Shown here piece by piece: positions 15,691 through 61,980 of a stretch of 64,000 nucleotides of DNA (positions are counted from its first letter, which is position 1; the number at the start of each line of letters is the position of its first letter). Source of the stretch: Tetragonia tetragonoides (taxonomy: Eukaryota > Streptophyta > Magnoliopsida > Caryophyllales > Aizoaceae); the NCBI GenBank assembly GCA_038025085.1, contig CM076141.1, positions 17,362,001-17,426,000 of the forward strand, read 5' to 3'. Under the pieces are notes generated by a model, which did no database searches, had not been told where the DNA came from, and saw nothing but the letters and a program-made list of their open reading frames with translations. Made by a program: the position numbers and the translations under genes.

Positions 15691-15703
<13 letters not shown>

Positions 15704-17765: not shown

Positions 17766-18542
17766 ACCTTGTCTAGTCATTATCATCCCTTTTGTAAGTA
17801 TATAATGAATATTGGAGCAGAGAGCAGATTTGCTTTCGAAGAGGAGAACCAAGGGTGGTGTTTTCTTGATTGGCTATACTGTATTTAGAAATTTCTCTCT
17901 TGGAAAACATGTATAAGATCGTCAAGCAGCCAAAGAACTTTTCTATGCACTTCAGGTATCTGTAATTTTTGTTTCGACCTTTCCCTTTGTTTTTTAGGAG
18001 TTTGAGTACCTTGTGAACCAGAACATTAGGTGCATTTTAGAGATCATTTGAGCTAATCTTTTTTCTTAATTTAATTCAACCATGAACCTTTGTCTGGATG
18101 CTTCTCCCTTGTCTTGTTTGGATGTGGCCCCTCTAATTTTATGTGCACATCCATTGTCTTCCTTTATTCTCAGGGTCATGCTATTCATTGCTTTCCATTT
18201 TGCTCATATCAACTCTTTTATTGAATCTCTCTGTTCGAGTAGTGGTATAGTTACTATTTATCATGATGCTTTCTTTCTCTAACCCTTATGCTCATTCTTT
18301 ATTTCCTTCTTTGTTGCATGCACTCTTGCAGTCAAAAAACAAAAAAAAAAAAAAACTAGAGCACATCTGGACCTCCCGAGACCCCTCCCTAGGCTGGATA
18401 CTTACTTGGTTGTTGTTGTGTTGCTCTGTTGTGCTTTCTATACGATTAAATTTGGAGTTGTAATATTACGGTATAATAACAATATTTTCTCTCCAAAAGT
18501 CCTAGCATTTGTTACATATATAGTAGAGTATTAGTTATTCGA
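17766..18542. other. Intergenic, no feature recognised
   Basis: T-rich sequence with short open frames only. Confidence 0.5.
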
Positions 18543-18615
18543 AGCCTATTAGCTCAGACGGTAGAGCAATTGTGCTACTGCACAAAAGACGTGGGTTCAA
18601 ATCCTACATAGGCTG
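18543..18615 (+). pseudogene. tRNA-like sequence
   Basis: A 72-nt cloverleaf-like sequence. It has a perfect 7-bp acceptor stem (AGCCTAT/ATAGGCT), a D arm GCTC...GAGC with A-box TAGCTCAGACGGTAGAGC, and a T arm GTGGGTTCAAATCCTAC with a B box. The anticodon arm pairs only with a 6-nt loop (TTGTG-CTACTG-CACAA), so no sound anticodon can be read and the isotype is unclear. A partial copy of the same sequence lies inverted at 23358-23420, so it may be a repeat or SINE head and not a working tRNA gene. Confidence 0.5.
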
Positions 18616-23179: not shown

Positions 23180-23420
23180 TGTTGGTTGAAAACCCCAATA
23201 GGCATTGGTCTTCAACCGGAATAGGCGTTGATTATTGAACTGATGCCAAAGAGTTTATACACGTCGGTCCTTTAAGACAACCGACGCCTATTCCAAGCAT
23301 AGACATCGGTTGTTTTAAAAGACCGACGCCTACTCTTTTCAAGAATCGACGACCATTTGTTTTAACCCACATCTTTTGTGCAATAGCATATTTGCTCTAC
23401 CATCTGAGCTAATAGGCTTC
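23180..23420 (-). repeat. CACTA-type subterminal repeat relic joined to a tRNA-like fragment
   Basis: Repeated ACCGACGCCTATTCC / ATCGGTTGTTTTAAAAGACC units at 23220-23340 resemble the ACGTCGGTT subterminal repeats of the element at 49909-54517. On the minus strand 23420-23358 reads GAAGCCTATTAGCTCAGATG and on to GTGGGTT, the first three quarters of the tRNA-like sequence seen at 18543. Confidence 0.5.
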
Positions 23421-23658
23421 AAAAACAAAAACTATGTAATATATACCGAGATTTTTGGAAGGCAAATATCATTATACCATACTGACTGGAATTACACATA
23501 CGTTCTGTGACAAATTTTACAACTGCACATTTAATCTGGTCTGCATAGATTCGATCAACATTCTGTCAATGTCATCCTCCTCCGTCTCAGTAGGAACTGG
23601 TGGTGATATATGGGGACAATTGCGCAGCAACATTCTGAGTATCTAGATCATTGGTTAT

Positions 23659-23843
23659 CTATTGTCTAGATGGGGTTGAAACAACACATCGTTCAAAGTA
23701 TGCAAGGCTGGTTATGACATAAGCATTCTGATTATCGCCTTCAGTATGTAATACAAGGCCACCACAAGTCTCTTCCATAGTTCTGTTATCATCACTTTTC
23801 CACTCTTCTTCTACAAAAGGAGCCCATAATGCTCCTCATTTCT
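23659..23843 (-). pseudogene. NAC-domain gene remnant, distal part
   Basis: On the minus strand, directly beyond the Copia target site, the frame reads APFVEEEWKSDD... to a stop at 23659-23661. Joined to 29505-29555 (VYKNGVGPRNEEHYG) it gives the end of a NAC domain (subdomain E, VxKxGxGPxNxxxYGAPFxEEEW). One base is missing between HYG and APF, a frameshift. The Copia element is inserted between the two parts. The upstream NAC subdomains were not found nearby. Confidence 0.55.
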
Positions 23844-24639
23844 TGTTGGAGTATCCCTCCTACATGGAGGAAGAACCCAATTAATTTGGGATATATTTGC
23901 TTACCATATGGGTTATCCATATGATGTTTAAGTGAAGGGCAATTTCGTATATTCACTCACAAGTGGCTTCCCTTATAAGCCAAAAGGTTAGAAGGGCTGA
24001 GTGCAAGAGAGAGAAAGCCTAGACACTCAAAAATTCAGGAGAAAAGTCTAGAAGAGAAGAGGAGAGAGAGAAGAGGAGCCACCCACGAATTTTGGTGCTG
24101 GCAGCCCAGAAATCCGCCCCGATCGACGACCAAACGAACTCCGATCGTCGCGAGATTTTAGCACGTTGTTCCTGACATCCCCCTCTTCAAATCCAACGGT
24201 CAGAATTTCATTTGGAGCTCTCTAACTCAGTTTTCTAAATTCAGCTCTTATTTTATACGAAATTGTATTTCCACTCTTTTTGGGTGATGATTTGGGAGAC
24301 TTGTTGTGCCAAGGTTGATCCTTGATGATTGTGAATACCTCTAGTTGATCTAGGGAAGAACTATTGTTGTACCCACTTGTTAATTTGTTGATTAGTGGAG
24401 GTTTTGGCACCGTTTGTTAACGGTCCCGTGGTTTTTTCCCCACATCGGGGTTTCCACGTAAATCCTTGCGTCTCCTTGTTTATTTACTGTTTTTGGGCTG
24501 ATTTATAGTTCCATTTGCTGCTGTCATTTTGGTTCAATATTGTTTGGTTGCTTGAATTGGTTATTGCTCATCTTTGCATCACAACCGGGGAAAAAGTCTT
24601 TGTTGCTTCCGCTTGTGTATTTGTGTGCTTTCCCCAACA
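23844..24639 (+). repeat. 5' LTR of the Copia element
   Basis: 796 bp, TG...CA ends, apparently identical to the 3' LTR. It should hold the promoter; no TATA box was fixed with certainty. Confidence 0.96.
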
Positions 24640-24642
24640 TAG

Positions 24643-24654
24643 TGGTATCAGAGC
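24643..24654 (+). promoter_or_regulatory. Primer binding site (initiator tRNA-Met)
   Basis: TGGTATCAGAGC three bases after the 5' LTR, complementary to the 3' end of initiator methionine tRNA, the usual primer of Copia elements. Confidence 0.95.
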
Positions 24655-24681
24655 TTTGGTTAGAGTCATTGTGAATTTGTT

Positions 24682-27600
24682 GTGTTGTTAAAGATGGATG
24701 AAAAATCTGGTGTGCACGGAATGATTAGTTTGAATTCTGGAAATTACTCCGTGTGGAAAACTAAAATGGAGGATATCCTTTATGTGAAGGATTTGTATGA
24801 ACCAATTTTAAATGCAACCATACCAACTGGTGTTGTTGAAAGTGAGTGGAAAATATTGAACCGTAAAGCCGTTGGAACAATTAGACAATTTGTTGATATG
24901 AGTGTCCTCCAACATATTGCCAATGACACGAATGCTTATACTCTTTGGAAGAAACTTGAGACCATGTATGAAAGGAAGAATGCCTTGAGTAAAGCGTCAT
25001 TGATTAGAAAACTTGTGAAACTGGAATATAAAGATGGTGATAGCATAGTAGTTCACTTGAATGAATTTCAAAGTTTGATTAACAAGTTGTCTGCAATGAA
25101 GATGAATTTAGATGATGAGCTGCAGGCATTGCTACTACTTTGCTCATTGCCAGAAAGTTGGGACACTCTATTTGTATCACTTAGCAACTCCGCACCAGAG
25201 GGCACGCTGACAATGGAAATTGTCAAAGCTAGTTTGTTGAATGAAGAAACTAGAAGGAAGGAAATGAGTTCCTCCACACAACCAGAGGCTAATGTGACAC
25301 AAGAATCAAGCAGGGGAAGAAGTAAGACTCGATATCCCCAGCATAGAGACAAGTCCAGGGGGAGATCAAAATCAAAGGGTAAGATCATTTGCCACTATTG
25401 TGATAAGCCAGGCCACATTCAAAAACATTGCAGGAAAATGAAGAGAGACAAGTCCAGAGAAAGGAAAGAAAAGGGTGAGACATTCGGGCAACAACAAGAA
25501 GAGAAAGATAACAACACCACTGCAATTGCAACAAGTGATGAATTATTTTTTATTGGTGACCATTGCCTAAATCTAGATAGTGATGATTGTACTTGGGTGA
25601 TTGACACGGGTGCTTCGTTTCATCTAACCTCGCACCAAGATTACTTCTCATCTTACACCAGCGGTGACTTTGGCTATGTAAAGATGGGGAATGATGGCTC
25701 ATCCAAGATTGTAGGCATGGGTACAGTGTGTTTGGAGACATCCACAGGTTGCAGTTTGGTGTTGAGAGATGTCCGACATGTTCCAGACATTCGGCTGAAT
25801 TTGATATCTCCTGGGTTGCTCGATGATGCTGGTTACTCCAGCAACTTTGGTGGTGGAAAGTGCAAGCTTATCAAAGGAAGTTTGATTGTGGCTCGTGGGA
25901 GCAAGCAGAGATCCTTGTATGTGATGCAAGCTAAGTTGTGCAAAGGAGAAGTACACGCAGTTGATGATTCCTCCAGCGAGTTATGGCACAAGAGACTTGG
26001 TCACATGAGTGAAAGAGGTATGCAAATGCTTGCTAAGAAGCAACTCCTTCCTGATGTTCAAGGTATGTCCTTGAAACCCTGTGTTGATTGTTTAGCTGGA
26101 AAACAACATAGGGCAGCATTTCATACTCGTCCCCCATCTAGAAGAAAACATGCATTAGATCTTGTTCACACTGATGTATGTTCTATGGATACTAAGTCAC
26201 ATAGCGGTGCACTTTATTTTGTTACTTTTATTGATGATTATTCTAGAAAACTGTGGGCTTTTGTGTTGAAAACCAAAGACCAGGTACTACAGTTTTTCAA
26301 GCAGTTCCAGGCCAGAGTTGAGAGAGAAACAGGCCGGAAGCTCAAGTGTGTTAGAGCTGACAATGGTGGAGAGTACAGGGGTCCATTTGAAGAGTATTGC
26401 AAAGTACAGGGCATCAGGCTTGAGAAGACAGTTCCCAAGACACCTCAGCTGAATGGACTTGCAGAGAGAATGAACAGAACAATTGAAGAAAGAATTCGAT
26501 GTATGCTCTCTCATGCGAAGCTGCCTAGGATTTTTTGGGCCGAGGCAATGTTTACAGCAGTGTACCTCATCAACCGGTCACCTTCAGTTCCTCTTAATGG
26601 AGATGTTCCGCAGAGAGTATGGACTGGTAAAGAGGTATCATTCAGCCACCTGAGAGTCTTTGGGTGCCTTGCATATGTTCATATTCCCAGAGATGAGAGG
26701 TCCAAGCTTGATAGCAAGACAAAGCCATGCATCTTCCTAGGGTACTCAGAGGATGAGTTTGGGTACAGATTGTGGAATCCAGTTAGCAGGAAAGTGATTA
26801 GAAGCAGAGATGTAGTGTTCTTTGAAGACAAAACCTTTGCAGATTGTGAGAAGAAGAAACAACCAGAGCCTTCTCCTAGTGACAGCGCCAACTCAGATCC
26901 AATATTTCCTGAAGTAACTCCTAGAGTTCAAGGGGGAGAACAACAGGAAGATGGCAATGATGATCATAACAGTGATGATGGTGATGATGTTCAGCCACCA
27001 CCAGATCATACACATGAAGAAGAACCCCATGTACAACCAGAACCACAGTTGAGAAGATCCACCAGAGAGAGACAGCCTACCTCTAAATATCCAGCAGATG
27101 AGTATGTGTTGATGACCGACGGGGGAGAACCTGAAAGCTACGAGGAGGCTATGTCACATGAGCACTGCAAGGAGTGGTATAATGCCATGCAAGATGAGAT
27201 GAAATCCTTGCATGAGAACCACACATATGACTTAGTGGAGTTGTCTAAGGGCAAGAGAGCACTCAAGAACAAATGGGTGTACAGACTGAAAACTGGAGAA
27301 GATGGTTCACCACCTAGGTACAAGGCACGTTTGGTGGTGAAAGGCTCAGGTCAAAAGAAAGGCATAGACTTTGAAGAGATTTTCTCTCCAGTTGTAAAGA
27401 TGTCTTCTGTTAGAGTTGTTCTTGGCTTAGCTGCTAGCATGGATTTGGAGTTGGAACAACTTGATGTGAAGACTGCTTTCCTCCATGGTGACTTAGAGGA
27501 GGAAATCTACATGGAGCAACCAGAAGGTTTCCAAGAGAAGGGAAGTGAGAAGCTTGTATGCCGTTTGAAAAAGAGTTTATATGGCTTGAAACAAGCACCT

Positions 27601-28692
27601 CGACAATGGTACAAGAAGTTTGAGTCTTTCATGAAAGACCACAGTTTCCACAAGACACATGCAGATTCATGTGTGTTTGTGAAGCATTACGCCGGAGGTG
27701 ATTTTCTCATTCTCTTACTTTATGTGGATGACATGTTGATTGTTGGACAGGATAAGGAGAAGATTGCCAACCTGAAGAGTGCCTTGAGCAAGTCCTTTGC
27801 AATGAAGGACCTTGGCCCTGCAAAGCAAATTTTGGGCATGCGTATCTCTCGTGATAGGAAGAACAAGAAGATATGGCTATCACAAGAGAGTTACATCCAG
27901 AAGCTGCTAGAGAGGTTCAAGATGGACAAAGCTAAACCCGTGAGCTCGCCACTTGCAGGTCACATGAAGCTAAGCTCCAGCCAGTGTCCTACAAGTGAGA
28001 ATGACAAGAAAGAGATGATGACGGTGCCTTATGCATCCGCCGTGGGGAGTTTGATGTATGCCATGGTATGCACTAGGCCAGACATTGCACATGCCATTGG
28101 GGTTGTTAGCAGGTTCATGTCTAATCCTGGTAAGGAGCATTGGGCAGCAGTAAAGTGGATCATGCGGTATCTCAGAGGTACTTCTAGAGTGTGTTTATGC
28201 TTTGGTCCCGGACAACCTGTGTTAGATGGCTACACAGATGCTGATTTGTCGGGTGATATTGATGCTAGTAAGTCTACCTCCAGATACTTGATGACAATTG
28301 CAGGGGGAGCTGTTTCATGGCAATCAAAATTGCAAAAGTGTGTTGCTCTGTCTACCACAGAATCTGAGTATATGGCAGCGGTTGAAGCTGGCAAGGAGTT
28401 TATTTGGATGAGAGATTTTCTAGAGGAGTTGGGTTTGAAACAAGACAAGTACCCTCTTTATTGTGATAGTCAAAGTGCCATCCACCTTGCCAAGAATGCA
28501 GCCTACCATTCCCGAACCAAACACATACGGAGGAGGTATCATTGGATTCGAGAAGCGGTAGAAGACAAGTCATTTGAGCTTGTGAAGATTCACACCGATC
28601 TCAACGGATCGGACATGTTGACGAAGGCCTTGCCTAAGGAGAAACTTCTTGTTTGTAGAAAGATTGCGGGCTTGGTCGAGCCCCCCATGTAG
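24682..28692 (+). CDS. Copia gag-pol polyprotein, intact
   Basis: Single open frame of 1336 residues, with ATG 28 bp after the primer binding site (a second Met follows at residue 5). In order: gag of the UBN2/DUF4219 type (about 1-230); CCHC knuckle CHYCDKPGHIQKHC (about 236-249); aspartic protease DTGAS (about 308); GAG-pre-integrase LWHKRLGHMS (about 433); integrase with Asp in HTDV (about 495), Asp in ADNGGEY (about 558) and Glu in GLAERMN (about 594), i.e. the DD35E spacing; reverse transcriptase with KTAFLHGDL and catalytic YVDDM (about 1013); RNase H with TDADLSGD, STTESEY and DSQSAIHL. No internal stop or frameshift and all catalytic motifs present, so it may be functional. In some Copia elements gag is made in excess by splicing or recoding; no such signal was seen. 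Confidence 0.97.
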   Translation: MLLKMDEKSGVHGMISLNSGNYSVWKTKMEDILYVKDLYEPILNATIPTGVVESEWKILNRKAVGTIRQFVDMSVLQHIANDTNAYTLWKKLETMYERKNALSKASLIRKLVKLEYKDGDSIVVHLNEFQSLINKLSAMKMNLDDELQALLLLCSLPESWDTLFVSLSNSAPEGTLTMEIVKASLLNEETRRKEMSSSTQPEANVTQESSRGRSKTRYPQHRDKSRGRSKSKGKIICHYCDKPGHIQKHCRKMKRDKSRERKEKGETFGQQQEEKDNNTTAIATSDELFFIGDHCLNLDSDDCTWVIDTGASFHLTSHQDYFSSYTSGDFGYVKMGNDGSSKIVGMGTVCLETSTGCSLVLRDVRHVPDIRLNLISPGLLDDAGYSSNFGGGKCKLIKGSLIVARGSKQRSLYVMQAKLCKGEVHAVDDSSSELWHKRLGHMSERGMQMLAKKQLLPDVQGMSLKPCVDCLAGKQHRAAFHTRPPSRRKHALDLVHTDVCSMDTKSHSGALYFVTFIDDYSRKLWAFVLKTKDQVLQFFKQFQARVERETGRKLKCVRADNGGEYRGPFEEYCKVQGIRLEKTVPKTPQLNGLAERMNRTIEERIRCMLSHAKLPRIFWAEAMFTAVYLINRSPSVPLNGDVPQRVWTGKEVSFSHLRVFGCLAYVHIPRDERSKLDSKTKPCIFLGYSEDEFGYRLWNPVSRKVIRSRDVVFFEDKTFADCEKKKQPEPSPSDSANSDPIFPEVTPRVQGGEQQEDGNDDHNSDDGDDVQPPPDHTHEEEPHVQPEPQLRRSTRERQPTSKYPADEYVLMTDGGEPESYEEAMSHEHCKEWYNAMQDEMKSLHENHTYDLVELSKGKRALKNKWVYRLKTGEDGSPPRYKARLVVKGSGQKKGIDFEEIFSPVVKMSSVRVVLGLAASMDLELEQLDVKTAFLHGDLEEEIYMEQPEGFQEKGSEKLVCRLKKSLYGLKQAPRQWYKKFESFMKDHSFHKTHADSCVFVKHYAGGDFLILLLYVDDMLIVGQDKEKIANLKSALSKSFAMKDLGPAKQILGMRISRDRKNKKIWLSQESYIQKLLERFKMDKAKPVSSPLAGHMKLSSSQCPTSENDKKEMMTVPYASAVGSLMYAMVCTRPDIAHAIGVVSRFMSNPGKEHWAAVKWIMRYLRGTSRVCLCFGPGQPVLDGYTDADLSGDIDASKSTSRYLMTIAGGAVSWQSKLQKCVALSTTESEYMAAVEAGKEFIWMRDFLEELGLKQDKYPLYCDSQSAIHLAKNAAYHSRTKHIRRRYHWIREAVEDKSFELVKIHTDLNGSDMLTKALPKEKLLVCRKIAGLVEPPM

Positions 28693-28708
28693 GAGTGAGG
28701 GGGAGATT
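28693..28708 (+). promoter_or_regulatory. Polypurine tract
   Basis: GAGTGAGGGGGAGATT directly before the 3' LTR; primes plus-strand synthesis in LTR retrotransposons. Confidence 0.9.
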
Positions 28709-29504
28709 TGTTGGAGTATCCCTCCTACATGGAGGAAGAACCCAATTAATTTGGGATATATTTGCTTACCATATGGGTTATCCATATGATGTTTAAGTGA
28801 AGGGCAATTTCGTATATTCACTCACAAGTGGCTTCCCTTATAAGCCAAAAGGTTAGAAGGGCTGAGTGCAAGAGAGAGAAAGCCTAGACACTCAAAAATT
28901 CAGGAGAAAAGTCTAGAAGAGAAGAGGAGAGAGAGAAGAGGAGCCACCCACGAATTTTGGTGCTGGCAGCCCAGAAATCCGCCCCGATCGACGACCAAAC
29001 GAACTCCGATCGTCGCGAGATTTTAGCACGTTGTTCCTGACATCCCCCTCTTCAAATCCAACGGTCAGAATTTCATTTGGAGCTCTCTAACTCAGTTTTC
29101 TAAATTCAGCTCTTATTTTATACGAAATTGTATTTCCACTCTTTTTGGGTGATGATTTGGGAGACTTGTTGTGCCAAGGTTGATCCTTGATGATTGTGAA
29201 TACCTCTAGTTGATCTAGGGAAGAACTATTGTTGTACCCACTTGTTAATTTGTTGATTAGTGGAGGTTTTGGCACCGTTTGTTAACGGTCCCGTGGTTTT
29301 TTCCCCACATCGGGGTTTCCACGTAAATCCTTGCGTCTCCTTGTTTATTTACTGTTTTTGGGCTGATTTATAGTTCCATTTGCTGCTGTCATTTTGGTTC
29401 AATATTGTTTGGTTGCTTGAATTGGTTATTGCTCATCTTTGCATCACAACCGGGGAAAAAGTCTTTGTTGCTTCCGCTTGTGTATTTGTGTGCTTTCCCC
29501 AACA
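28709..29504 (+). repeat. 3' LTR of the Copia element
   Basis: 796 bp, apparently identical to 23844-24639. Confidence 0.96.
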
Positions 29505-29555
29505 TTTCTCGGCCCTACACCATTCTTATAAACCATACAAACAAAAGGCAGCAAT
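29505..29555 (-). pseudogene. NAC-domain gene remnant, proximal part
   Basis: The minus strand reads LPFVCMVYKNGVGPR and joins, across the Copia element, to NEEHYG at 23843 and below. See the entry at 23659-23843. Confidence 0.5.
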
Positions 29556-36491: not shown

Positions 36492-47599
<11,108 letters not shown>

Positions 47600-48119
47600 G
47601 AGAGAGAAATGGGTGATTTAATTTGAGCAAGATTTTTACTTTTTTTTTTTTATATATTTTGATGAGAAAGTAATGTATAGCGGGAAATAATTGATGGGAG
47701 GTTAATATGTTATATAAGCGTTTTGGTGTTACCAACTTTTTTTTTTTTTGCTCGTTTGGTGTTACCAACTTTTTTTTTTTTTGCTCGTTTGGTGTTACCA
47801 ACTTACCAGTTACCATGATGCAAATATTTGATGAGTACAGGCTAGAGCTCCTAACTTGAGAATTGAGATGGTGATTTGGTTGGTCAATTCACAGTCAAAT
47901 CAGTCATTGAATCAAATGTGCGCTTGCGCTTCTGCCTTCTAGTGTCCTAGATTGCTCCTAGACTCCCAGTCAACTTAAGGGGTGGTAAAGACTAAAGAGT
48001 ATAGATCTGAACCGAAAAATCGACCGAACCAAAAAATCAACCCAAACGACGAAAAAAAAAGAAGAAAAAAAAAACCCAAAACTGAATCGATTTTTGCAGT
48101 GTTTTTACCGTAAAACTAA
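47600..48119. promoter_or_regulatory. PEX6 upstream region with T-rich minisatellite
   Basis: Upstream of the PEX6 start on the minus strand. Contains two full copies and part of a third of a unit of about 35 bp (TTTGGTGTTACCAACTT, T run, GCTCG) at 47722-47805. No certain core promoter. Beyond 47820 nothing is recognised. Confidence 0.5.
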
Positions 48120-48159
48120 AAGACATGTTCGGAATGAGGGTAATGCATAACCATCAATT

Positions 48160-49638
48160 ATGGAGAGCGAAAAAGAAAGAAGCAAAGGGCGCTCCGTTGA
48201 GAAGACCGACCAACTTCGCCGGTCAAACAAAAAATTCAAACGGAGAAACCCAGAGCCTCCTTGGGATCCCAGGGATGCGACGGAGGCAATGTCTCAGCAT
48301 ACTAGAGATTCAGAAATCTCTCCGCCAACACAAAGCACGTCCTACATGGACAAGGTGCAAGGGAACGCAAATACAGGGGGTATTTTCTCAAATTTTCACA
48401 ATCCTTCCTTTGTGCTTGATCAAGAAGACGAGGATGTCTCTGATGACGATCAACCACCAGAGAATGAGGATCCTCGATGCCCTACAATCTTGCTAACACG
48501 TGAGCAGAAGCAAAGGTTGAGACGCCCTTGGAAAAACAGTCTCATCATCAAGATGTTTGATAAAAACATAAGTTATGCTCAATTGATGAATAAGCTAAAA
48601 ATCAAATGGGCATTGAAAGGTGAACTCAGACTCATTGACATTGGATTCAGGTATTATATTGCAAAGTTTTCCAATATGGAAGATCAACACCATGTTCTCA
48701 CGCAAGGGCCTTGGATGGTTGGTAATCACTACTTAACTATTAGGAAATGGGTTCATGACTTTGTTCCTGATGACAAACCTATGCGCCATCTTACTGCGTG
48801 GATTCGCATTCCCCACCTCTTAGTGGAATACTTTGATGCTGGTTTCCTTCACCTTATTGGTTCCAAGGTGGGCGAAGTACTGAGAATTGACAAAACAACG
48901 ACAAGCGTTGAGCGTGGAAAATACACGAGACTAAGCGTCGAGGTGGATCTAGCTAAGCCTTCAATCTCTAAATTCTGCCTACATGGTAGAATATGGATCA
49001 TTCAATACGAAGGATTACACCAAATTTGCTTTAAATGTGGCACTGTTGGCCACAAGGGAGACAATTGCAATTTGTTCTATGATCCTACTAATAATGCTAC
49101 ACAGGGCACTGGTAACAGCAGTGATAACATCACAAGTACAAACTTGGTATCAAAGGCTACAGAACAATCAGTACAGAAATGTCCTGAAGAGGATGAAGAT
49201 TATGGTGTCTGGATGATAGCCAAAAACCCAGTTCGGAATCGGGGTAACAAGCAGGCGAACATATCAAACCCGAATAACAACCAAAATGGATCGGGTAAGC
49301 AATACACGGAGCCTGGTTCGAGTAACAGATCTGATGTTCAAAATCTTGGGTCAAGATTTGAGGCGCTAGACGTGGAAAATATTGATCAAAATGAGGCAGG
49401 TAATCCTGTAAATCAGGAAAATCCTCTTGATTCTGCTCCCATTGGAGAACAAGCTGTCAATAATATTGATATAGCTAATAAATTAGTCAGTAAGCAAAAA
49501 GAGGTTTTCTCCTTTGGAAATTCCTCTTCAAAAAAATCTCCAGTTAAGGCAAAAAAAAAAAAACAGCTACTTCCATGCAGAATAATAATAAAAAAAAAAA
49601 CCCCAAAGGAGGCGGAAAGAGGATCAATTAACCTCTAA
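48160..49638 (+). pseudogene. LINE ORF1 (DUF4283 + CCHC zinc knuckle), 3' end frameshifted
   Basis: 492 codons open from MESEKERSKGRSVEK. A basic N-terminus is followed by a DUF4283 domain at about 115-260 (GPWMVGNHYLTIRKW, TAWIRIPHLLVEYF) and a zf-CCHC_4 knuckle CFKCGTVGHKGDNC at about 290-303. It is an RNA-binding chaperone-like protein of plant LINEs. The frame ends after two long A runs (49550-49600), but another frame stays open to the CACTA insertion at 49908 (NPKQFWKESQESSRRRS... HNLPNPPGL). So an indel in an A run has cut off the C-terminus. Confidence 0.85.
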
Positions 49639-50200
49639 GAATCCTAAGCAATTTTGGAAAGAATCTCAAGAGTCCTCTCGACGCAGGAGTTTAGGAAACA
49701 AGCAGCTTGACACCTCTAAAGTTGCTAATTCTTCCAATAGGGTAAATCAGGCTCAAGAAAAAGGAACAAACAGAACAAAAACACAAGAGAAGCCTAAAGA
49801 CACAGGAACTCACCCTGCATCCTCCAGTACGTCAGGTTTGCAATCCAATGGCGTACCTCAACCCTCTCCGTCCTCCAACATCCACAATTTGCCAAATCCC
49901 CCCGGACTCACTACTACGGAAATAGGATACAACATCGGTTTTTATACCGACGTTCTAGAGGGGTGACGTAATAGGGGTATACCTACAACGTCGGTTTTTT
50001 ACGAAGGAACGACGTGAAAGAGTAGGTTACGACGTTGGTTTTTTTCTAAAAAATCGACGTGAAAAGGTCAGGTACGACGTCGGTTTTTTCAAACAACCGA
50101 TGTCAAAAGCCTAAGTACAACGTCGGTTTTTTATGTAAAACCGACGTCAAATGTGTAGTTTTCTTAAAAGTACGTGGGTTTCAACAAAACCGACGTGAAA

Positions 50201-51485
50201 GGGGTTAATTTTTAAAAAAAAAATAAAATAAAATAAAACTGCTCCAAAAGTACTAGCCTGTACATCCTCCAAAATGCATATCAATATTCATCTACTATTC
50301 ACCACCAAACTTACATGTATTTGATATATGTATAATAGGAAAAATAACCACAAAATAAAAAAGTTCTTACTCTAAATGGTATCTAATTAACACATTTAAT
50401 TTGCTCTCCATCTTTTCCCATGATCAGTTCAGCAAGGAATTTTGATTGTCTGTACATCAGCTTATTATAGCCCAAGCCTTGTCACCCAACAAACACTTTG
50501 AGCTAATTTCCGTTCACACAATATAACAACACTTGCCCAGATTCCAGAACCTTGATAAGTTTTAATTCCAGCAGTAGCTATGCTACACCACAGCACAATA
50601 GAGACGCTAATCAGCATAAGTCGAAGAGGAGAAAGACAGAAGTCCCTGCATCAGTAGATAGTTATCAAAACCAATAAGTATGTCAAATGTGTGACTTGTG
50701 AGAATATAGAAAATGCATATTAAGACTATTAAAGAGCATTTTATCAACCTTCCGCATTTTGTTTAGGCTGCATACAAGAGAGACGCGTTCTAATGGTCAT
50801 TTTGATCTGCTCAGCTAGCTTCCTGGGTTTGCATTGTTTGCCCTCAATACGCCATTCTGTTCCTAGCTACCTGACATTATAACTCTTCTTGGAATGGGCC
50901 CAAAAATGACCTTTCGAGCTCACCAGTAGCAACATTTAAACTCCCTTCTTCTGGTATTTAGCCCACAAAAATCAGTACATTGACCACAAGATGCATACGA
51001 AGCTAGGAGATCTTGGATATCATCTTACAATGAAAATAAAAGATAACAGAACAAGGCTGGGACTTTACACATATTCTGCATTTTGAGGACTGAGCCAAAA
51101 GATAAGAGTATAAGAGTGAGTACCCCACGCACTAGTTATCACCAGGAAAAAGGTTCATTCACAGTAAGATTATAATTCTCATAGACCTTATTTATCAAAA
51201 AAAAAAGAAGCTCTCTGAGATCTTCAACTCCAGAAAGATAGTGATTGAATCAAGCAACATTAACTTACACCGTAATGTCAAGGGCTTAATCTCTCCAATT
51301 TCCCACCATTCCCTCTTTTCCCAGTCTTATATAACAGGTAGTCAATTATTATATTTGCTTCTACATTCTAGGACAATCTCAGCCACAGCACACAACATTA
51401 CGCAGTAATATTCTAGAGACATGTCACCATATAAGTTGATAAAAAGTCGAACCAGAAGCCAAACTCAGGTGCAGATGCAATATAC
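50201..51485. other. CACTA interior, unassigned
   Basis: Possible exon piece on the minus strand near 50765-50840 (KPRKLAEQIKMTIRTRL), otherwise intron-like AT-rich sequence. No family recognised. Confidence 0.35.
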
Positions 51486-51599
51486 CTTTCAAGAACTTGA
51501 TATGGATCCAGAACAAGCTTAAGTTTTCCATCATTCCATATGGAATACCGAACATTGGGGAAAAGTCTAAGTAATAGAAGCTTTGGAACCTGTCAAAAT
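51486..51599 (-). pseudogene. DUF616 (MUCI70-like glycosyltransferase) exon fragment
   Basis: 114 nt bounded by GACAG on the acceptor side and GTATAT on the donor side. It reads VPKLLLLRLFPNVRYSIW followed by DGKLKLVLDPYQVLER, which fits the conserved core of plant DUF616 proteins, a group of putative Golgi glycosyltransferases. The reading frame is intact. Adjacent DUF616 exons were not found, so this is an isolated exon inside the CACTA-like element. Confidence 0.75.
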
Positions 51600-51979
51600 A
51601 AGAAATGAATTTGAAAGATCAACAATATCAGTCTTGCTCAACCTTTAACTGCCTTAATTACAGCCTCTTCCTCAAACATTTAACTTTGACCCAAAATATC
51701 TCATCAACCTAATTCTAGCAGTATATGAGCAAACTTTTCCTAGCATTTCAGAAAGCAAATAAAGTTGTTGGTTCAGTTATATAAATGTTTCTCTTCGGAA
51801 AAAAATCGAATCCATACATAACAACAAATGTAACTGATTACCACCAACAGCAGACCCCATGCAATTTGAGGTGGACTCAATTCTGCCAGTTATATGATCA
51901 ATAAGGTCCACTTGCACCTGTATAAGTCATGAAGCATTTAATGAACCTGAAAAGCGCAATGCAAGACTCCTTAACCAAA

Positions 51980-53214
51980 CAAGGAAGCCCCATTTCACCA
52001 AAAATTCTTCAAAGTCTATCACATGCAAAGCTCTGAAGAAAGCTCTAATTGCTACATTAGCAGCAAACACAAACTCTAGCTCTGAAGAAATAACCCTGTC
52101 AGAGGCAGTTGAGAACTTCTACACCTGCATCAATGAGAAGAACCTACAGCAAATAGGGGTTTTCATCTCCAACGAGTGTATTCCTGAGGACTCGGCTTTC
52201 CCCTATGATTTCCAAGGGAAGCAGGTCCGGAGCCTGTTGTTTTTCGACCGTTAGGTCAATCCTCAAAAACCTTCCAGTATCGAAACGTATTCCTTAACTA
52301 TGTACTGTATTTTCCTGCAGGAAGTCATGAGTTTCTTCAGCCAACTTGCTGAATCCATGGGTAAAAATGCTCAGTTCAGGACAGGGCATGTTTGTGAAGG
52401 AGATGAGCTCACAGCTTCTGTGCACTGGCACTTGGGTATTTGCCTTTACAAAAACAATCTACTGCCTTGACATATATAAGACATGCATATATCTGAATTT
52501 TATGAACTAAAGTCGAGCTCAAATACCAGAGTGGAAGCAGGACCAAATCCCATTCTCTAGAGGCTGCAGCATTTTCCAGTTCTCTAAACAAGGAGATAAA
52601 CTTGTAATACGGTAATAGCATACAAAATCAGATTAATCACTATCCTGAGTCATCATCATATTGGCCACAGAGAAGTTACTAATTGAAAATTAAATGCAGG
52701 AAAGCTCAAATCATAACAGAATCCCCGATTAAACCAGGAAAATTAGCTACGGTAAACAATTTACCTCCTTCCCGCAAAAACATCATTCCAACATCCTTAA
52801 GCGTAATGTGTGCTTTGGTTTCTGGAATAAATTCTTCAACAGGCTTTGCTGAAGATAGTATCATCAATATTTGACGACTACCCGAAGGTTGCAAAATGTA
52901 AGCAAATCTCTCATTTCCCTAAGCTCTTTTGATGATATTAACATCGATCATGTTCTATAGCAGCGATAAATTAACAAAACCTGAGAAACATTGCAGGGTC
53001 CCTACAGAGTCCACACATCATTTTAAAAGCAGTGATGTATATCTACAACATATTTGTGGCACCTATTATAAACCCAATCCTTGCATTTTACATCAACTCA
53101 TGGAAATTCATTGCTCGATTACATGGATACCCAATAAGCATTCTGCAAGGCGTTACAAAGCTTCTTAATCAAAACTCTTCTAGGGATGATCCCGACACCT
53201 CGACCTCAGAATGA
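51980..53214 (+). pseudogene. NTF2/SnoaL-like family gene carried by the CACTA-like element
   Basis: Five exons with matching splice sites and phases: about 51980-52224, 52321-52435, 52530-52611, 52700-52751 and 52997-53214 (stop TGA). They read EAVENFYTCINEKNLQQIG, CIPEDSAFPYDFQGKQ, EVMSFFSQLAESMGKNAQF, ASVHWHLG, EWKQDQIPFSRGCSIFQF, RKAQIITESPIKPGKLA and LQSPHIILKAVMYIYNIFVA. This is the pattern of plastid-type NTF2-fold proteins of plants (ketosteroid-isomerase-like cone plus C-terminal hydrophobic tail). The N-terminus is basic and Ser/Thr-rich like a transit peptide, but no start codon in frame was found, and the piece expected between 52751 and 52997 (LTLLKxxTSLFDxxP in relatives) is missing. 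It is thus nearly complete but probably defective. Confidence 0.75.
52765..52918 (-). pseudogene. Unassigned host-like exon, antisense in the NTF2-like gene
   Basis: Bounded by CTTAG and GTAAAT on the minus strand, it is open as GNERFAYILQPSGSRQILMI, then LSSAKPVEEFIPETKAHITL and KDVGMMFLREG. The composition is that of a folded protein, and both splice borders are good. I do not recognise the family. It lies in an intron-like gap of the plus-strand NTF2-like gene. Confidence 0.45.
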
Positions 53215-53250
53215 GGTCTTTGGGTTACTGGCTGCAACACAGTCAGTCAG

Positions 53251-53485
53251 TCAGGCATCGTTGCTATCACGTCTCAACCACGAGTCCAACAACGAGAAGG
53301 CAACGAACGGTCCCAAAACAGGAGGGAGCAGAGGAGGCCTGCTGAAAGCCACAATGGGTTCAGCATCCTTCTCATCTATTATTGTTCTTCTTCCCTTACT
53401 ACTCTCTTCATTGGCCGGTTTTTTCGGCTCCAAAGAGGGCACAATACCACCTATTGTAGATACATACAACAATTCTTCAGTAATA
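53251..53485 (-). pseudogene. Unassigned host-like terminal exon, antisense
   Basis: After GTTACAG on the minus strand it reads ITEELLYVSTIGGIVPSLEP, a charged linker and AEPIVAFSRPPLLPPVLGP to a stop at 53251. The Pro-rich tail looks like a real C-terminus. The family is not recognised. It lies tail-to-tail with the NTF2-like stop at 53214, 36 bp away. Confidence 0.4.
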
Positions 53486-53499
53486 CTGTAACAGTTAAA

Positions 53500-54294
53500 A
53501 CTGACAAAAGGAAACATCACAGACTCGCATTTAATTCATGTTATATAGTATATAATCTTACCCCAATGAAATCCATTAAAACACCAGCAAAAGCCCTATT
53601 TTCCAAAATCACATATTTCTCAAAACCCTAGCAAATCTCACAAACCCAATTCACAGTACAAAACGTAAAACACGAAACATCCACAACAAAAACAAACAAA
53701 TTAACCTAAACTTCTACGATTATACCTTAATCTGGGTTTCATGAGTCTTTAGCGAGAATTTTGAGTTTCTGAGCTCAGTCTCTTTCGTATTCCCCATCCA
53801 CTGTCTTCCTTACTTCCATTAAAATGGAGACATAGAAACTTTGGAGTCAATTTCGTGGGTCTTGAAGCAACTAATCGCAAACACAAAGATCTGGGTGGTT
53901 TAGGGTTTTCGGATTCGACCCGCTAAATTCCGTCTAGTCTTCCATGCTTCAAGCCAACTTCAAATAACGAAGAACCCTAGCTTTGGGCGACTAGTTTTTC
54001 AGATCTAGGCATCTTTTAGAGTTTAATCCAAGGATTTGTGTGGTTTTATACCAGCAGCAGCAACTGCGTCAATGGCAGCGACGAGGTGGCTAAAGGATTA
54101 GGGATATGTCACCCATGATGGCATGATGAGAGAGAAAGGGGAGAGAGGGTGAATCCCCAGTGAGAGGAGAGAGCGAGCGAGAGAGAAGGTGAGGGACTGA
54201 GATCTGAGGCGGCGAATTAAGGGTGAATCCTCAGCATATTTACACATTTGTCCTTTGTTTATTTATTTTACACGGCTTATCACATCAGTTTCAC
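53500..54294 (-). other. Leader-like sequence of the captured minus-strand piece
   Basis: A/C-rich then TCTC-rich when read on the minus strand, like a plant promoter and 5' leader. No open frame of note. Could be the upstream part of one captured gene. Confidence 0.3.
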
Positions 54295-54519
54295 CAAAAA
54301 ACGACTTCAAACCCGATAAAATACCAAGTCAGTTTTGTTTTGTAACCGACGTTGGATCTGTAATCCTAATTGACACAGTATACCACGTCCGTTTTTCAAA
54401 AAAATTGACGTGGTAGTTTTTTCCCTAATTTAAAAGTATGCCACCGCTTACTTACCACGTCGGTTTTTTACGGACCGACGTTGTATGTGCGACGTTATTG
54501 CTCCTTATTGTAGTAGTCT

Positions 54520-57500
54520 TGTGTTCGCGGAAGCCCAGATGGAAGAACCGGTAATGGGGATAGGCTCCCTGATGGCACACGGGATGGAGGTGAGGATATG
54601 CTCGTATCTCCCTCCAGTGTTGTTGTTCACACCCACGCTACCTCTGGATGTAGCGAGAGTACTACGCATTCTGCGTGATTTGTCCTTTGCGACCTCCTCT
54701 TTAATGGACGTTGGTTTTATGGATAGTACACCACAAGTACAATTGTCTCCGATTAGCTTCATGGTTTGGAACGTTCAAGGGGCGGGGAGTTGTAACTTTC
54801 TCGCCACGCTAAAAGAACTTATCCGAATTAACAATCCTACTGTACTGGCTCTTGTTGAGACCCATATCAGTGGAGCGCGTGCGAGTGAAGTTTGTGATCG
54901 TATTGGATACTCGGGTTGTGCCTGTGTTGAAGCTGAAGGTTTTAGGGGGGGAATATGGCTCCTATGGAAAACGGAAGAGGTCACAGTCCGCTCTGTAACT
55001 AATCACCCCAACATCTTACAATTGAGATTGAACGAGCAGTAGGTGAACCATGGTTCTTCTCCGCAGTGTACGCTAGCCCTGACACCACTACACGAGAAGA
55101 ATTATGGGAGAGCCTAAGAGATGTGGCTGATAACTTGCACAGGCCATGGCTTTTAGCCTGGTGACTTTAATGAAATACGAAACCCAGATGAAAAGATGGG
55201 GGGTTCAGATAATGTAGCTCGTAGATGTGCTCGCTTCAATAATTGGATCAACGAAATGGGACTAGTAGACCTCGGTTTTGCTAGACCACGTTTCACTTGG
55301 TCAAGAGGGAATGAGCCAAGCACGAGGGTTGCAGCACTCCTTGACTGAGCCCTCTGTAATTCCCAGTGGCGCGAGGAGTTCCAGGAAGCTTCAGTTCGCC
55401 ATCATGTAAAGCATCAGTCTGATCATTGTACCCTTCTAATTAATCCCAGTGGATTTGCCCCACTGTTATCTGTTCAGAGACCCTTTAGGTTCCAGGCAGC
55501 TTGGATTATGCATGAGATATTTGAGGAATTCATGGCTGCAAACTGGGATTCGACACAAGATTTGCTCACTTCATTAAGGGATTTTACAGAGAAATTGCAG
55601 GACTGGAACAAAAAATGTGTTTGGATTTTTGTTTAGACAGGGAAGTAATCTCTTTGCTCGTCTAGCAGGTATTCAGCGTGCTCTAGCCAGGGGAGGAAGG
55701 AGACACTTGATAAAGTTAGAGCAAGCACTTCACCGACGTCTGGATATCATAATTAATCAGATTGATGTGTTTTGGTATCAAAAAGCAAGAATAAATGCTA
55801 TCAGAGACGGAGACAAAATACGAGGTATTTCCACCTACAAACGATCATACATCGTCGTAGAAATCATATTGATGTTCTCCAAAATGCTGAGGGTGAATGG
55901 GTTTTGGATCCTGCAGAAGTTAAGGACATGGTTCGGAATTTTTTTAGACGTCTATTCTCCACTGAACAACATGAAAGACGTGAACATACAATGCCCATTG
56001 ACAAGTTTCCCATGCCGCATACTGATCAACGGTCTCGCATTCAGCAGGTTTTTACAGGAGCGGAAGTTCGTAAAGCGGTATTTGATGTCTCCTTTTAAAG
56101 CCCCTGGCCCGGATGGGTATCAAGCCCTTTTTACCAGCAAAACTGGACTCGAATTGGACCCAAGGCAGTTGAGTTTGCTCTTGATATTCTCAATGGCAGA
56201 ACGTTTCCTGAAGAGGTAAATGAAACATTATTGGTTTTGATCCCGAAAGTTGAAAACCCACAGCAGGTGACTCAATTAAGGCCAATTGGACTCTGTAATG
56301 TTTCATATAAAATGGTGACGAAAGCGATTGTTAATCGGCTAAAGATAGTGTTACCTCATCTTATCAGCCCGAATCAATGCAGCTTCGTTCCGGGGCGACA
56401 AATTACAGACAATGTGGTAATAGTACAGGAGATGGTGCATTCCTTTCGTCACAAACAAGGAGCTAAGGGCAGTATGATAGTGAAAATAGATCTAGAAAAA
56501 GCCTTTGATAGGCTGGATTGGGGGTTTATTCATGAAACACTACTCGAGGCGCGCCTCCCTCAAGGCTTTATTGACGTGATCATGACCTGCATTTCAACGT
56601 GCAACAGACCCATTTAATCCTTCTCGTGGAGTTAGACAAGGAGACCCACTCTCCCCGTATATCTTTGTCCTATGTATGGAACGACTTGCACATTTGATAG
56701 TTGAGGCTGTTGAAAATAGCGCATGGAAGCCTGTACGAACGAGTCGCAATGGACCTCCTATTACTCATCTTTTCTTCGCTGATGATCTAATGCTTTTCGC
56801 TGAAGCCTCGGTGGAACAAATGCAAGTAATCAAAACCTGTCTTGATACGTTTTGTGCTAATTCAGGTCAGAAAGTTAGCTTTGCCAAGTCAAGTGTTTTC
56901 TTCAATGCCAATGTCCCAAACCAAGCTGCACATGATATATCTCAAGTGGGCAATATCCCTGTTTGTGATAATTTGGGAAAATACGTAGGAATGCCTACCA
57001 TTAATGGCAGGGTACCCCGTGATACGTTTAGCCACATTCTCGACTAGGTCTACAAGCGATTATCAGGATGGAAAGCAAAGACGTTATCTTTGGCAGGGAG
57101 AATTATACTTGCACAATCCACACTCAATGCCCTGCCATCTTATGCTATGCAATCTGCATATCTCCCACGGAGCGTATGTGACGAGGTAGATAAGTGTTGT
57201 CGCAGATTTGTCCAGGGTGATTATAATGAAAGGCGTAAAATCCAAAATGTGGCATGGCAAGATATCACTCGACCAAAGTCTGCAGGAGGGCTAGGCATCC
57301 ATTCAATGCGACAAGCAAATGCAGCCTCAATGTCAAAACTAGGATGGCGTCTCCTCAATGAGCCTGAGAGCCTTTGGTCTCGTGTGGTTCGTTCTAAATA
57401 CTGTAAAGGTCGTTGCGACCTTGACATGTTCCAGCCAAAAGCCGACTCCTCTAATGCTTGGCGTGGGATCACTACAAAGTAAAAACAGTGAGGTCCTCCT

Positions 57501-58834
57501 AGCAGGGACGAGAATGAACATTGGTAATGGCCTGAATACATTATTTTGGTCACACAGGTGGGTAGATGATGACCCATTGATCAGCTCAGCCGCACGACAA
57601 ATCTCAGACGAAGAAATGAATATGACAGTATACAATTATTGGGATTTTTCGCAAGGATGGCTATGGGATAAGTTTTGTGATGCTCTGCCTCAGTATATTT
57701 TAGCAAAATTGCTTCCATGGAAGTGGGTAACAATCCGGATATGCAGGATAGCTTTACTTGGGGACCTTCAAGCTCAGGTAATTTCACATTCAATTCAGCT
57801 TTCTCAATCATACGCAAGGAAGATGGGGATATGTTGATGCAAAATGGAAGCTAGCTTGGAGCTTGCAAACGTCCCAGCGTATCAGAGTTTTCATTTGGTT
57901 GCTTCTGCATGATCGCCTTATGACTAATCTTAACAGATACAGAAGGAGGATTGCTAATGATCCCTTTTGTATTTGTTGTGAGGGTAAGGTGGAAGATGTT
58001 GATCACTTGTTTCGCGATTGCCCCCATGTGTCTGCTATTTGGGATTCTTTTGTTCCAACACCTAACAAGCTGGTATTTGAAGAGCAAAATATACAGGACT
58101 GGCTACTAGAGAACTTGACAGCAAAGAATCGTCCCTTTGCTAATAAGTGGCCGGAAACATTTGCAACTTGTTTATGGTGGATTTGGCGCTGGAGAAATAG
58201 CCGTTGTTCTGGCAAAACAGAGAGCAATCCCAGTGACAAGTATGATTTCTTATCTCGAGCAATAATCTCCACAGCGGCAGCCATGGAGGTAGACAAGAAT
58301 TTGCAAGGTGCAAATAAGAAACGAAGAATTGAAGCTCAAATTGGATGGAAACTTCCTGATAGTGGATGGCTTAAAATAAATACTGATGGGGCAGCTAAAT
58401 CTAATCCGGGTTTGGCTGCTGGAAGTGGTATTGCTCGCTTTGAATCAGGTGATTTCTCTTTTGGTTTTGCAATCAACTTGGGAGTGTGTACCTCGCTTTA
58501 AGGGTCTTAGTATAGCATGGGATAAAGGATTTAAGAAAGTGTGCATTGAAACTGACTTAGAAGTGGCGATTCTCCTCCTTAACAATCCTGTGAGCATGAA
58601 TAATCCAAACAGGGGAGTTATTGAGAAAGGTCGGGAGCTGCTAAAACGACAATGGCATAATCGTATGGTGCATACTTATCGAGAAGGAAACCGCTCTGCG
58701 GATTGGTTCGCAAACTATGGCATTCAACTCCCGCTTGGACTCCATATTTTTGATACTCCACCTACTGGTGTCATCTACATCCTCCAGGATGATGTGTTGG
58801 GAATTTCTTTTTCTAGAATGGTTATTATGTAATG
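54520..58834 (+). pseudogene. LINE ORF2 (endonuclease-reverse transcriptase-RNase H), broken
   Basis: Resumes after the CACTA element. Endonuclease from 54762 (FMVWNVQGAGS, ALVETHISG, then NEIRNPDEKMGG and TWSRGNEPSTRVAALLD). Reverse transcriptase 55617-57030: KAPGPDG, LIPKVENPQQ, the catalytic Asp in KIDLEKAFDRLDW and RQGDPLSP, with FADD at 56779-56790. Zinc-binding zf-RVT near 57960-58040 (FCICCEGKVEDVDHLFRDC). RNase H at 58370-58730 (INTDGAAKSNPG, ETDLE, RSADWFANY). Several frameshifts and stops (TGA at 55346-55348, TAG at 57045-57047) inactivate it. Catalytic motifs are still readable, so decay is moderate. Confidence 0.92.
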
Positions 58835-59175
58835 GGCTATTAGCCCTCTTTGGCACCAAAAAAAAAAAATGAGGGTAATGCATGAATGAAGTAATGCAAA
58901 AGATTTAAGAGTATAATAGGAGATGCTGTTAATTGTAGTGTTAGATTATAACTTATAAGTGGTGGAGGATAATACTTTCCCCATTTGGGATAATAGTTAA
59001 CAACCCTTCCGCTAAATTAACAATTCTCCTAGGCCCTAACCCCTCCTTTCCCCCTATTTTTCTCCTTAATGCATTAAGGGACTTATAATTAACCACCTTT
59101 ATCTTTCTATTTTACCCTTTAATTTGCTCTATTACTCCTTAATACATTACCTTCATTTCAAGCAACATGCCCTAA

Positions 59176-60031
59176 GTACGATAATTTATTGTTATGGTGT
59201 TTGGATAAAGTGGAATTCTTACTTTATCGGTTTGTCATAGTAAGGATATTCTGTCCCATTTCGTATGCGAAAATTTTCAAGTGTTACTATGACATTGCTG
59301 AAATGTGTAATCGGAGAAATTACAAGTTTACAACCAACAGAAATATTGTATTCCCATCTTACTTTAATTTTTTCCCCCATATATTCGAAAACTATCCTTA
59401 TTATTACCTTAACACTAGAAATTCACAAGTCAAAGATACTTTGAGGATCACAAATCATTTCGCCCCTTTTCTCATTTCTTGCATGAGCTTCCATTTGCAG
59501 GAAGGCAATTCACAAGTCAGAGGAACTTGACGATAACGTTTAGCATGACAGAAGCGGAATTTTGAAAACAACTGCATCTTGCATATACAAGCATTCAGAT
59601 AATGGCAATTCAAGAAGTATGGCTGTTCAACACTTCAACCGATTGCACATGGATGTTCCCCATCCTCAGCGAGACATACAATACCGTTCTTCAACTCCAC
59701 CTAGTCAAAAGCCTATAAACATCATCAACTGTTGGTAACATTTGAACTTATGCAGAATTATTATGACACCAAAAATAAAACCAGAGCAGAACTTTATATA
59801 AAAGTATTAAAGCCAATATATACACAACATTATCATTACAGAAGCAAGTATAGCATGAGGTTCACACTCCAACATGCAAAATCCTTGTTTAAATTCTTGC
59901 AACTCCCTTAACCCAACCCTTGTTACCACCACGACAACGAGAAAATGTATAGACATGACATGCAAATCTCTTAGATATAACATCATTTTGCTCTCTTGAC
60001 TCTGATAACTAATCCAGTGAAAGTCACAATA
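59176..60031. other. Intergenic and 3' flank of the GRAM gene
   Basis: AT-rich. The segment about 59800-60031 should be the 3' UTR of the GRAM gene on the minus strand. Nothing else recognised. Confidence 0.5.
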
Positions 60032-61980
60032 CTATATGTTGTCCCCTGGCTGTGAATTGTATGTACGCCGCCTCAGATTTGACTCTGGTGTGGGCTGCTG
60101 CAGAAAGATCTTTGTTGGGTCATTTGGATCAACATATCTGCAGAAAACATGATCCAACTTTATCAATATATTGTCAATTCTTACACTTGTTGAGAGTTTC
60201 AAATGAGAAACCTCCTCAGAATACAAATATATAATATCTGCAGAATTCACATGTTTGGTATATCATTGTGGAGAACAGTCAGATTACTATACATTAACAC
60301 GGGTTTCATTTGTTTGGTTTCCCACTTCGGAGTCTTTACTGGAAAGATGTCAAACGATTTCCTCAAAAAGGGTTAGTTTAGAAAGTAATACCAAGGCTGG
60401 GTTAGAAAGTATTTCCCATGAGGGTGTCCACATAGGCTTGGGATTTCACGAGCCATGTTTTTTTCTTCGGTCCAGAACTAAAGTCGCCATCATGAATAGC
60501 GACTTTTATGGAGCAAAGTCGCTAATGTGGACAGCGACTTCCACGAAGGAAAGTCGCTAACGCCAATAGCGACTTTCTTATGCGCTCTCTTCCACGCCCT
60601 CTGCGCTGTTTGTTGAATCAGATAAAGTCGCTAGCACGGCTAGCGTCTTTGTATCACGTAAGTCGCTGTCGTGGACAGCGACTTCTGTAAAGGAAAGTCC
60701 CTGTCCTTTATAGCGATTTACGTCTGTGTGACGGAAAAAAATAATATTGAGACTCGTGAACTCCCAAGCCTACGTGGACACCCTCATGGAAAATACTTTT
60801 TAACCCAGCCTAGTATTACTTTCTAAAATAGTCTCTTTTCAGGAAATCGTTCAAAAATGTCATCAAAATAATTGTTTCCCATTTAACTTCCTCACCTTTT
60901 CACACTGCTTGCATTATTCTTTAAGGTAAAAGCTGGAAGAATAGATTAGGTAAAATTTAACATAGAGCCTTCTGTTTTCATTGTTTTCCCTCCCTTTTCT
61001 GTAGTTTCTCAAACGTCTTCTGTTCTACACATCAATGCTAGTGCGGTAGTGCCTAAGTTACCATAGTTTTGTACTATAATCACCACAAGCTTAAAATTGA
61101 AAAAAGTACTTACGCATGTCTCATCATTTCATCCACAGGGGTTTGTGCTGCACGTAATGGATCAACTCGAGGCTCTGAGACAGGTGCAAACTGTTGATTA
61201 TATTGCCTCACAGAATTTATTAAGTTGAAGAACAATGGGATAAAGGTACCACAGCCACCCTCCTTGAACAAAATTTTGAAAGAGTGGGCCGAGTACAGAG
61301 CCCTATTCTCAGTCTCGGGAACAACCTGCAAGAGGCAAATATATAAGGTATGGGCCCAAAAGAGAGTGTGAATATCTACTATGATGAGATACCCACCGGC
61401 TGCACAAGCCCTGAGATATTGTTGCAATGAAATATTGGCTGATTGAACTTCTCGTCATGGACATGCAACTGCAGATACACAGAGTGTAGATCAGCATGAG
61501 GCACCGGCACGTTTGGTAAAAAGTGAAACATACAAGATTTTACATCCACTTTCCTCTATAGTAATATTTGATCATTTTACTCTTAGGTTTTACCAAACAG
61601 TCACATCACTGTATCATCAGACACTTCACCAGAGGACAACTGACCAAGAGAGGAACCAATTGTCATGGTGTATGTGCGATAAATGTTTTTGGGGGGTGGT
61701 GTGGTGATGGGGAGAGGATGAAAAGAAAATGTGAAAAACAATTTGATTCTTTAGAGGACAGATTATAGTTTCCTGGAGTACAGGATATATATATTGCATC
61801 ATCAAAACTAATTGCATTTTGGCTGAAGTGGAAGCAGAGAATGCATATGAATATTAAGCACAAAGGTTACATACCAGGGGCATATCAAATGCGAAAAAGT
61901 TCCCAACAGGCTTACTCGCAACAAACACCATACGGATATTTGACAAGTAGATTACCCCTTTGGCTTTAGCTTTTCCGCTC
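60032..61980 (-). CDS. GRAM-domain, WBP2-like (UPF0664-type) protein, 3' four exons
   Basis: Exons 61980-61875, 61468-61397, 61325-61114 and 60137-60032 (TAG at 60034-60032), all with GT-AG borders and matching phases, giving about 165 residues. They read KGVIYLSNIRMVFVASKPVG (GRAM core), EKFNQPIFHCNNISG, FKILFKEGGCGTFIPLF, RVDPLRAAQTPVDEMMRHA and YVDPNDPTKIFLQQP. This is the conserved plant protein related to WW-domain-binding protein 2; its molecular role in plants is not established, and the GRAM/PH-like fold suggests membrane lipid binding. The first exon(s), expected to start MALNPQL-like, were not found up to 64000, so the gene is incomplete in this window or has a long first intron containing the hAT-type element at 63227. 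Confidence 0.92.
60346..60864. mobile_element. Long-TIR MITE (Mutator-like?) in the last GRAM intron
   Basis: The left arm 60346-60460 and right arm 60755-60864 are inverted copies at about 85-90% identity (AACGATTTCCT, TAGAAAGTAATAC, CATGAGGGTGTCCAC, TAGGCTTGGGA). Between them are repeated AAGTCGCTA / TAGCGACTT palindromic units. No coding capacity. Target duplication not resolved. Confidence 0.82.

Follow-up and report, generated by a model that had tools for sequence, protein, structure and literature searches.

How did parts of several unrelated host genes, lying in both orientations, come to stand inside a long interspersed nuclear element (LINE)? This question is raised by a 64-kb stretch of the genome of Tetragonia tetragonoides (Aizoaceae, Caryophyllales; assembly GCA_038025085.1, contig CM076141.1, positions 17,362,001 to 17,426,000), the whole of which is called the window here. 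We consider it very probable that the segment at 49909-54517 is a non-autonomous CACTA-type transposon (Pack-CACTA) that took up parts of three or more host genes and later inserted into an older LINE. An earlier note on this DNA had proposed gene capture by a CACTA-like element with exons of at least two, and probably more, host genes. Three gene pieces with introns, placed between CACTA-like ends within a LINE, support the capture, and the count of genes is now at least three. What we observed directly comprises the nested position of the segment, its ends and subterminal repeats, and, for the three gene pieces, their exon-intron structure and homology.

The host LINE is flanked by an intact 16-bp target-site duplication (AATGAGGGTAATGCAT), the two copies of which are identical, and has a poly-A tract at its 3' end. 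The part preceding the insert matched DUF4283 (Pfam, E=2.3e-25) and, below threshold, a zinc knuckle. The part directly after the insert gave a sub-threshold endonuclease match (19.4 bits, cut-off 24.5), and RVT_1 and zf-RVT were found by Pfam farther 3'. RVT_1 is split across two frames, indicating that this LINE copy is broken. The intact duplication and the LINE domains bear out the earlier proposal that the element is nested in a LINE, and the nesting makes the order of insertion clear: the LINE came first and the gene-carrying element second. An unoccupied LINE site is predicted to read GGACTTGTG. An AAA-ATPase gene occupies 37500-47617 on the minus strand (AAA domain E=2.1e-06, lid domain below cut-off) and likely encodes, judging by its resemblance, the peroxisome factor PEX6; the LINE and the element within it stand 534 bp upstream of its likely ATG.

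The first captured piece is a SnoaL/NTF2-like gene of six exons. All exon borders have GT and AG, and 258 residues can be read from 51970 with no stop codon or frameshift until the final stop. The first three introns were picked by eye; for the last two, 24 combinations of splice sites were compared, of which two stayed open, and the one fitting the homologues was taken. The frame through exon 4 matched SnoaL_2 (Pfam, E=2.8e-07). Among 124 candidate homologues, 21 passed an E value of 1e-3, of which 20 carried plant names and one had no name. The closest was a protein from Saponaria officinalis, with 57% identity over 245 columns. With its 258 residues and six exons, this piece agrees with the near-complete NTF2-like gene that had been described on the plus strand. 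According to the alignment, the first ~35-40 residues, a poorly conserved region, are absent, and the frame open from 51898 contains no ATG. Accordingly, the protein could be produced only via a chimeric transcript.

The second captured piece is a single exon from a gene for a TOD1/MUCI70 (DUF616) glycosyltransferase. It matched PF04765 with E=1.1e-14; 35 of 41 candidate homologues passed, all 35 of them contain PF04765, and identity to plant proteins reached 91%. The DUF616 exon previously read on the minus strand is thus confirmed. The captured exon has L in place of the H found in 34 of the 35 homologues, and N in place of an I found in 35 of 35. These two changes at near-invariant residues point to a loss or relaxation of constraint on this piece, as far as its sequence indicates. 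Fetched proteins were compared with positions 46501-60000, and results with E<5 were examined for seven of them: P0001, P0022, and the MUCI70 proteins of quinoa, beet, Gypsophila, Silene, and Opuntia. With these seven proteins, no further MUCI70 or third-gene exon was found in the element at E<0.1, the next-best MUCI70 match within the element having E=0.21.

The third captured piece is a last coding exon with its stop codon. Over 64 residues it aligned, at 70% identity, with the C-terminal part of LOC110719563 of quinoa (147 residues; E=2.3e-19), which alone of nine candidates passed, and the start of the exon coincides with an AG acceptor. The best relatives of the first and third pieces, from Saponaria and quinoa, thus both belong to the Caryophyllales. 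The stop codons of the first and third pieces face each other with 36 bp between them, so that, if the two genes are not adjacent in nature, two captures should meet at this point. Upstream of the third-gene exon and on the same strand, the CT-rich stretch at 53500-54240 is perhaps the 5' end of a captured gene.

Other exon-like stretches on the minus strand fared differently. We rejected 52765-52877 as an antisense by-product, since it overlaps SnoaL/NTF2-like exon 5, part of a six-exon frame that agrees with the homologues until close to the C-terminus. The stretch at 51842-51917 had no Pfam or NCBIfam match, and PDB returned a single match with E=0.18; it also belonged to the 63 residues that were scored together with the DUF616 exon, and all 35 matches there were PF04765 proteins. 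The earlier note had counted two more exon-like stretches on this strand. Of the three candidates considered here for this pair, 53251-53450 is confirmed by its quinoa match, and 52765-52877 and 51842-51917 are not confirmed. In addition, a coding-looking stretch of 40 residues at 50747-50866 on the minus strand inside the element may be a fourth captured piece; it had no Pfam, NCBIfam, or PDB match.

Could the segment instead be a native locus of ordinary host genes, its transposon-like ends arising by chance or from a nearby element? Although the intact SnoaL/NTF2-like exons would suit such an origin, the segment is enclosed by a LINE with an intact duplication, and the three genes are unrelated, lie in two orientations, and are each found only in part. 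Accordingly, the genes do not stand at an ordinary locus, and we regard this explanation as extremely improbable.

The ends of the segment provide the link to CACTA elements. The left terminus is CACTACTAC at 49909, a 9-mer found nowhere else on either strand of the window. The right terminus GTAGTAGT is the inverted repeat of ACTACTAC, so that the inverted terminal match is exact over 8 bp and covers 8 of 9 bases. Terminal regions of about 300 bp on the left and about 230 bp on the right contain short subterminal repeats. The motif ACGTCGGTT, exact or as its complement, occurs seven times in the window, each time within the two ends of the element. With up to two mismatches, ACGTCGGTTTTT occurs 20 times in the window, 13 times in the ends and 7 times elsewhere, compared with 6, 4, 6, 6, and 4 copies in five Markov-simulated 64-kb sequences. 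The 13 copies in the ends stand in direct and inverted orientation, as expected of a Pack-CACTA. Of the CACTA-like ends and subterminal repeats that had been claimed, the left terminus and the repeats therefore stand, and the right end lacks the final G.

No second copy of the element was found in the window, where the only matches were of 27 bp, at 15680-15706 and 23302-23328. An 18-base pattern from the left end had no match in viral contigs, a collection unsuited to this question. A different cluster of short repeats, of the ACGTCGG type, lies at 23180-23360 (23261, 23303, 23318). This cluster is perhaps a remnant of another CACTA-like end; 27 bp of it match the element's left end.

Several observations weigh against a Pack-CACTA inserted in the LINE. 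First, the right end reads ...GTAGTAGTC rather than ...TAGTG, the terminal G of CACTA ends being absent. Second, a scan for exact target duplications of 2-12 bp, made next to termini in which at least 8 of 9 bases are inverted, found none; the left flank of the element is ACT and the right flank CT. Insertion with a duplication of ACT, followed by loss of the 2 bp GA at the right junction, would give the observed sequence. Third, aligning the two end regions locally gave a top score of 33, a value equalled or exceeded by 1 of 494 random pairs, so that the similarity of the ends beyond the 8 terminal bp is modest. Fourth, the open frame of the LINE is only weak evidence in favour: when the flanks are joined from 49908 to 54520, one open frame of 279 codons spans the insertion site, but 53 of 160 joins tried around the element ends keep the frame open, so that it counts as agreement and not as proof. 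Fifth, within the captured gene, the SnoaL/NTF2-like frame joined through exon 4 scored 19.8 bits against the NTF2 family, below the cut-off of 21, and the frames of exon 1 and exon 2, when searched separately, matched only unrelated families in Pfam, in each case below threshold. Finally, the SnoaL/NTF2-like copy appears, from its sequence, to be without clear decay.

The first two of these points would suit a gene-carrying element of another cut-and-paste superfamily, such as Mutator (Pack-MULE), hAT, or PIF, given a right terminus other than TAGTG and an unreadable target duplication. The target duplication of hAT or Mutator elements is 8-9 bp long, and Pack-MULEs are defined by a target-site duplication of 8-11 bp together with long terminal inverted repeats. 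Here, the absence of an exact duplication of 2-12 bp at termini inverted in 8 or more of 9 bases speaks against the 8-9 bp type, and the inverted repeat is exact over only 8 bp. Moreover, the left end is CACTACTAC, and direct and inverted subterminal repeats of 10-20 bp are given as a mark of CACTA elements in PMC8978399. Accordingly, we consider another superfamily improbable.

The state of the SnoaL/NTF2-like copy bears on a further explanation, namely that it is a functional, perhaps chimeric, expressed gene under selection, for which the element supplies a new first exon or promoter. We compared it with 16 of the 21 homologues, P0015 and P0018-P0021 being excluded as partial or divergent. 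The copy breaks 2 of 28 otherwise invariant columns, and the 16 plant homologues break 0-2 of 26-28. On the one hand, conserved columns are thus kept about as in other plants, and six exons with GT and AG borders join into 258 unbroken codons. On the other hand, an in-frame upstream ATG and the first part of the protein are missing, and a gene captured recently would appear just as intact. Because an undecayed frame is expected equally from a recent capture and from a kept gene, it does not separate the two, and we judge a working gene very improbable.

For the Pack-CACTA that we prefer, a transposase of its own is not expected. Pfam was run on 25 of the 84 frames of at least 30 amino acids in the element, the remaining 59 frames having at most 63 amino acids, and no transposase domain was found in those 25, consistent with a non-autonomous Pack-CACTA. 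Rfam gave no match over 46000-60000. A CACTA transposase encoded elsewhere would move the element, acting in cis through its termini and subterminal repeats. The captured pieces would be copies of genes which still exist elsewhere in the genome. Since introns are retained, capture would have taken place at the DNA level, either through repair or through the fusion of insertions lying next to each other. In the fusion model, as outlined in PMC8903248, such insertions are mobilised as a single unit. Such a fusion could leave old internal ends, and no former internal ends were found within the element, where matches between ends and interior were 10-11 bp long with E of 0.17 or worse; their absence neither supports nor excludes fusion. 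The captured pieces are most likely passengers for the greater part, and they could be spliced into chimeric transcripts.

The window contains several other repeats, apart from the features collected in Table 1. A retrotransposon at 23843-29505, Ty1/copia-like by our reading, has two 798-bp direct repeats that are 100% identical, with a single unbroken gag-pol-like frame of 1342 residues between them. Judging by these features, it looks recently inserted and is possibly still active. A tRNA-like stretch at 18516-18601 recurs in inverted orientation at 23360-23444, ~4.8 kb away (86 bp, 84% identity), and is possibly tRNA-derived by its appearance. Two stretches match their own reverse complements and are perhaps foldback elements: 15368-15688 (88% over 322 columns) and 60353-60851 (71% over 511 columns).

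Table 1. Coordinates in the window of the host LINE, the inserted element, and the pieces it carries.
Feature	Position	Strand	Basis or remark
LINE target-site duplication, left copy	48133-48148		exact over 16 bp with right copy
Host LINE (plant L1-like)	48149-58867	+	Pfam matches; 6110 bp when the insert is not counted
Inserted CACTA-like element	49909-54517		4609 bp; ends and subterminal repeats; no transposase domain found
Left terminus	49909-49917	+	end comparison
Left subterminal repeats, ACGTCGGTTTTT type	49932-50196	both orientations	9 copies, up to 2 mismatches
TOD1/MUCI70 (DUF616) glycosyltransferase, one exon	51486-51589	-	PF04765; splice borders at both sides
Exon-like stretch, unsupported	51842-51917	-	splice-like borders; no convincing relative
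SnoaL/NTF2-like exon 1, 5' truncated	51970-52224	+	51970 is the chosen start in a frame open from 51898
SnoaL/NTF2-like exon 2	52321-52435	+	splice joining
SnoaL/NTF2-like exon 3	52530-52611	+	splice joining
SnoaL/NTF2-like exon 4	52700-52751	+	splice joining
SnoaL/NTF2-like exon 5	52843-52897	+	splice joining
SnoaL/NTF2-like last exon	52997-53214	+	stop TGA at 53212-53214
Third gene, last coding exon with stop	53251-53450	-	relative of Chenopodium quinoa LOC110719563
CT-rich leader-like stretch and possible intron	53500-54240 (approx.)	-	sequence reading only
Right subterminal repeats, ACGTCGGTTTTT type	54296-54468	both orientations	4 copies, up to 2 mismatches
Right terminus	54510-54517	-	followed by C where G is expected
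LINE target-site duplication, right copy	58868-58883		overlaps end of poly-A tract

Plant transposons that carry genes are well documented, and the phenomenon is well established. Pack-CACTA and other Pack-TYPE elements are described from Arabidopsis, rice, and maize (PMC8903248), and the capture work of Catoni 2019 is covered in PMC8903248 and PMC13317346. PMC1947982 presents Tgm-Express1, a CACTA element of soybean that resides in the F3H allele wp. It resembles the present element in being of CACTA type and similar in size (5.7 kb, against 4.6 kb here) and in carrying exons and introns of unrelated host genes, five in number against at least three here. However, Tgm-Express1 occupies an intron of a gene that is expressed and gives rise to chimeric transcripts (PMC1947982), whereas the present element lies in a broken LINE and one of its captured genes is almost complete. 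Within the Caryophyllales, the CACTA elements of Chenopodium share 10-20-bp subterminal repeats at their ends and captured gene fragments with our element, to the extent described in the excerpted text of PMC8978399. In that text, the captured pieces are short (80 bp of AP2 and two Neprosin pieces), the elements have transposase domains, and the terminus of a quinoa CACTA element, CACTAGTAG, differs from CACTACTAC. No paper dealing with Pack-TYPE elements together with Caryophyllales was found in the literature searched.

Our study adds a well-preserved capture of several genes in Caryophyllales, an order in which the examples given in the accessible parts of PMC8978399 are short fragments. 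With its near-complete SnoaL/NTF2-like gene, this element would be well suited to studying whether genes taken up by transposons are expressed or silenced.

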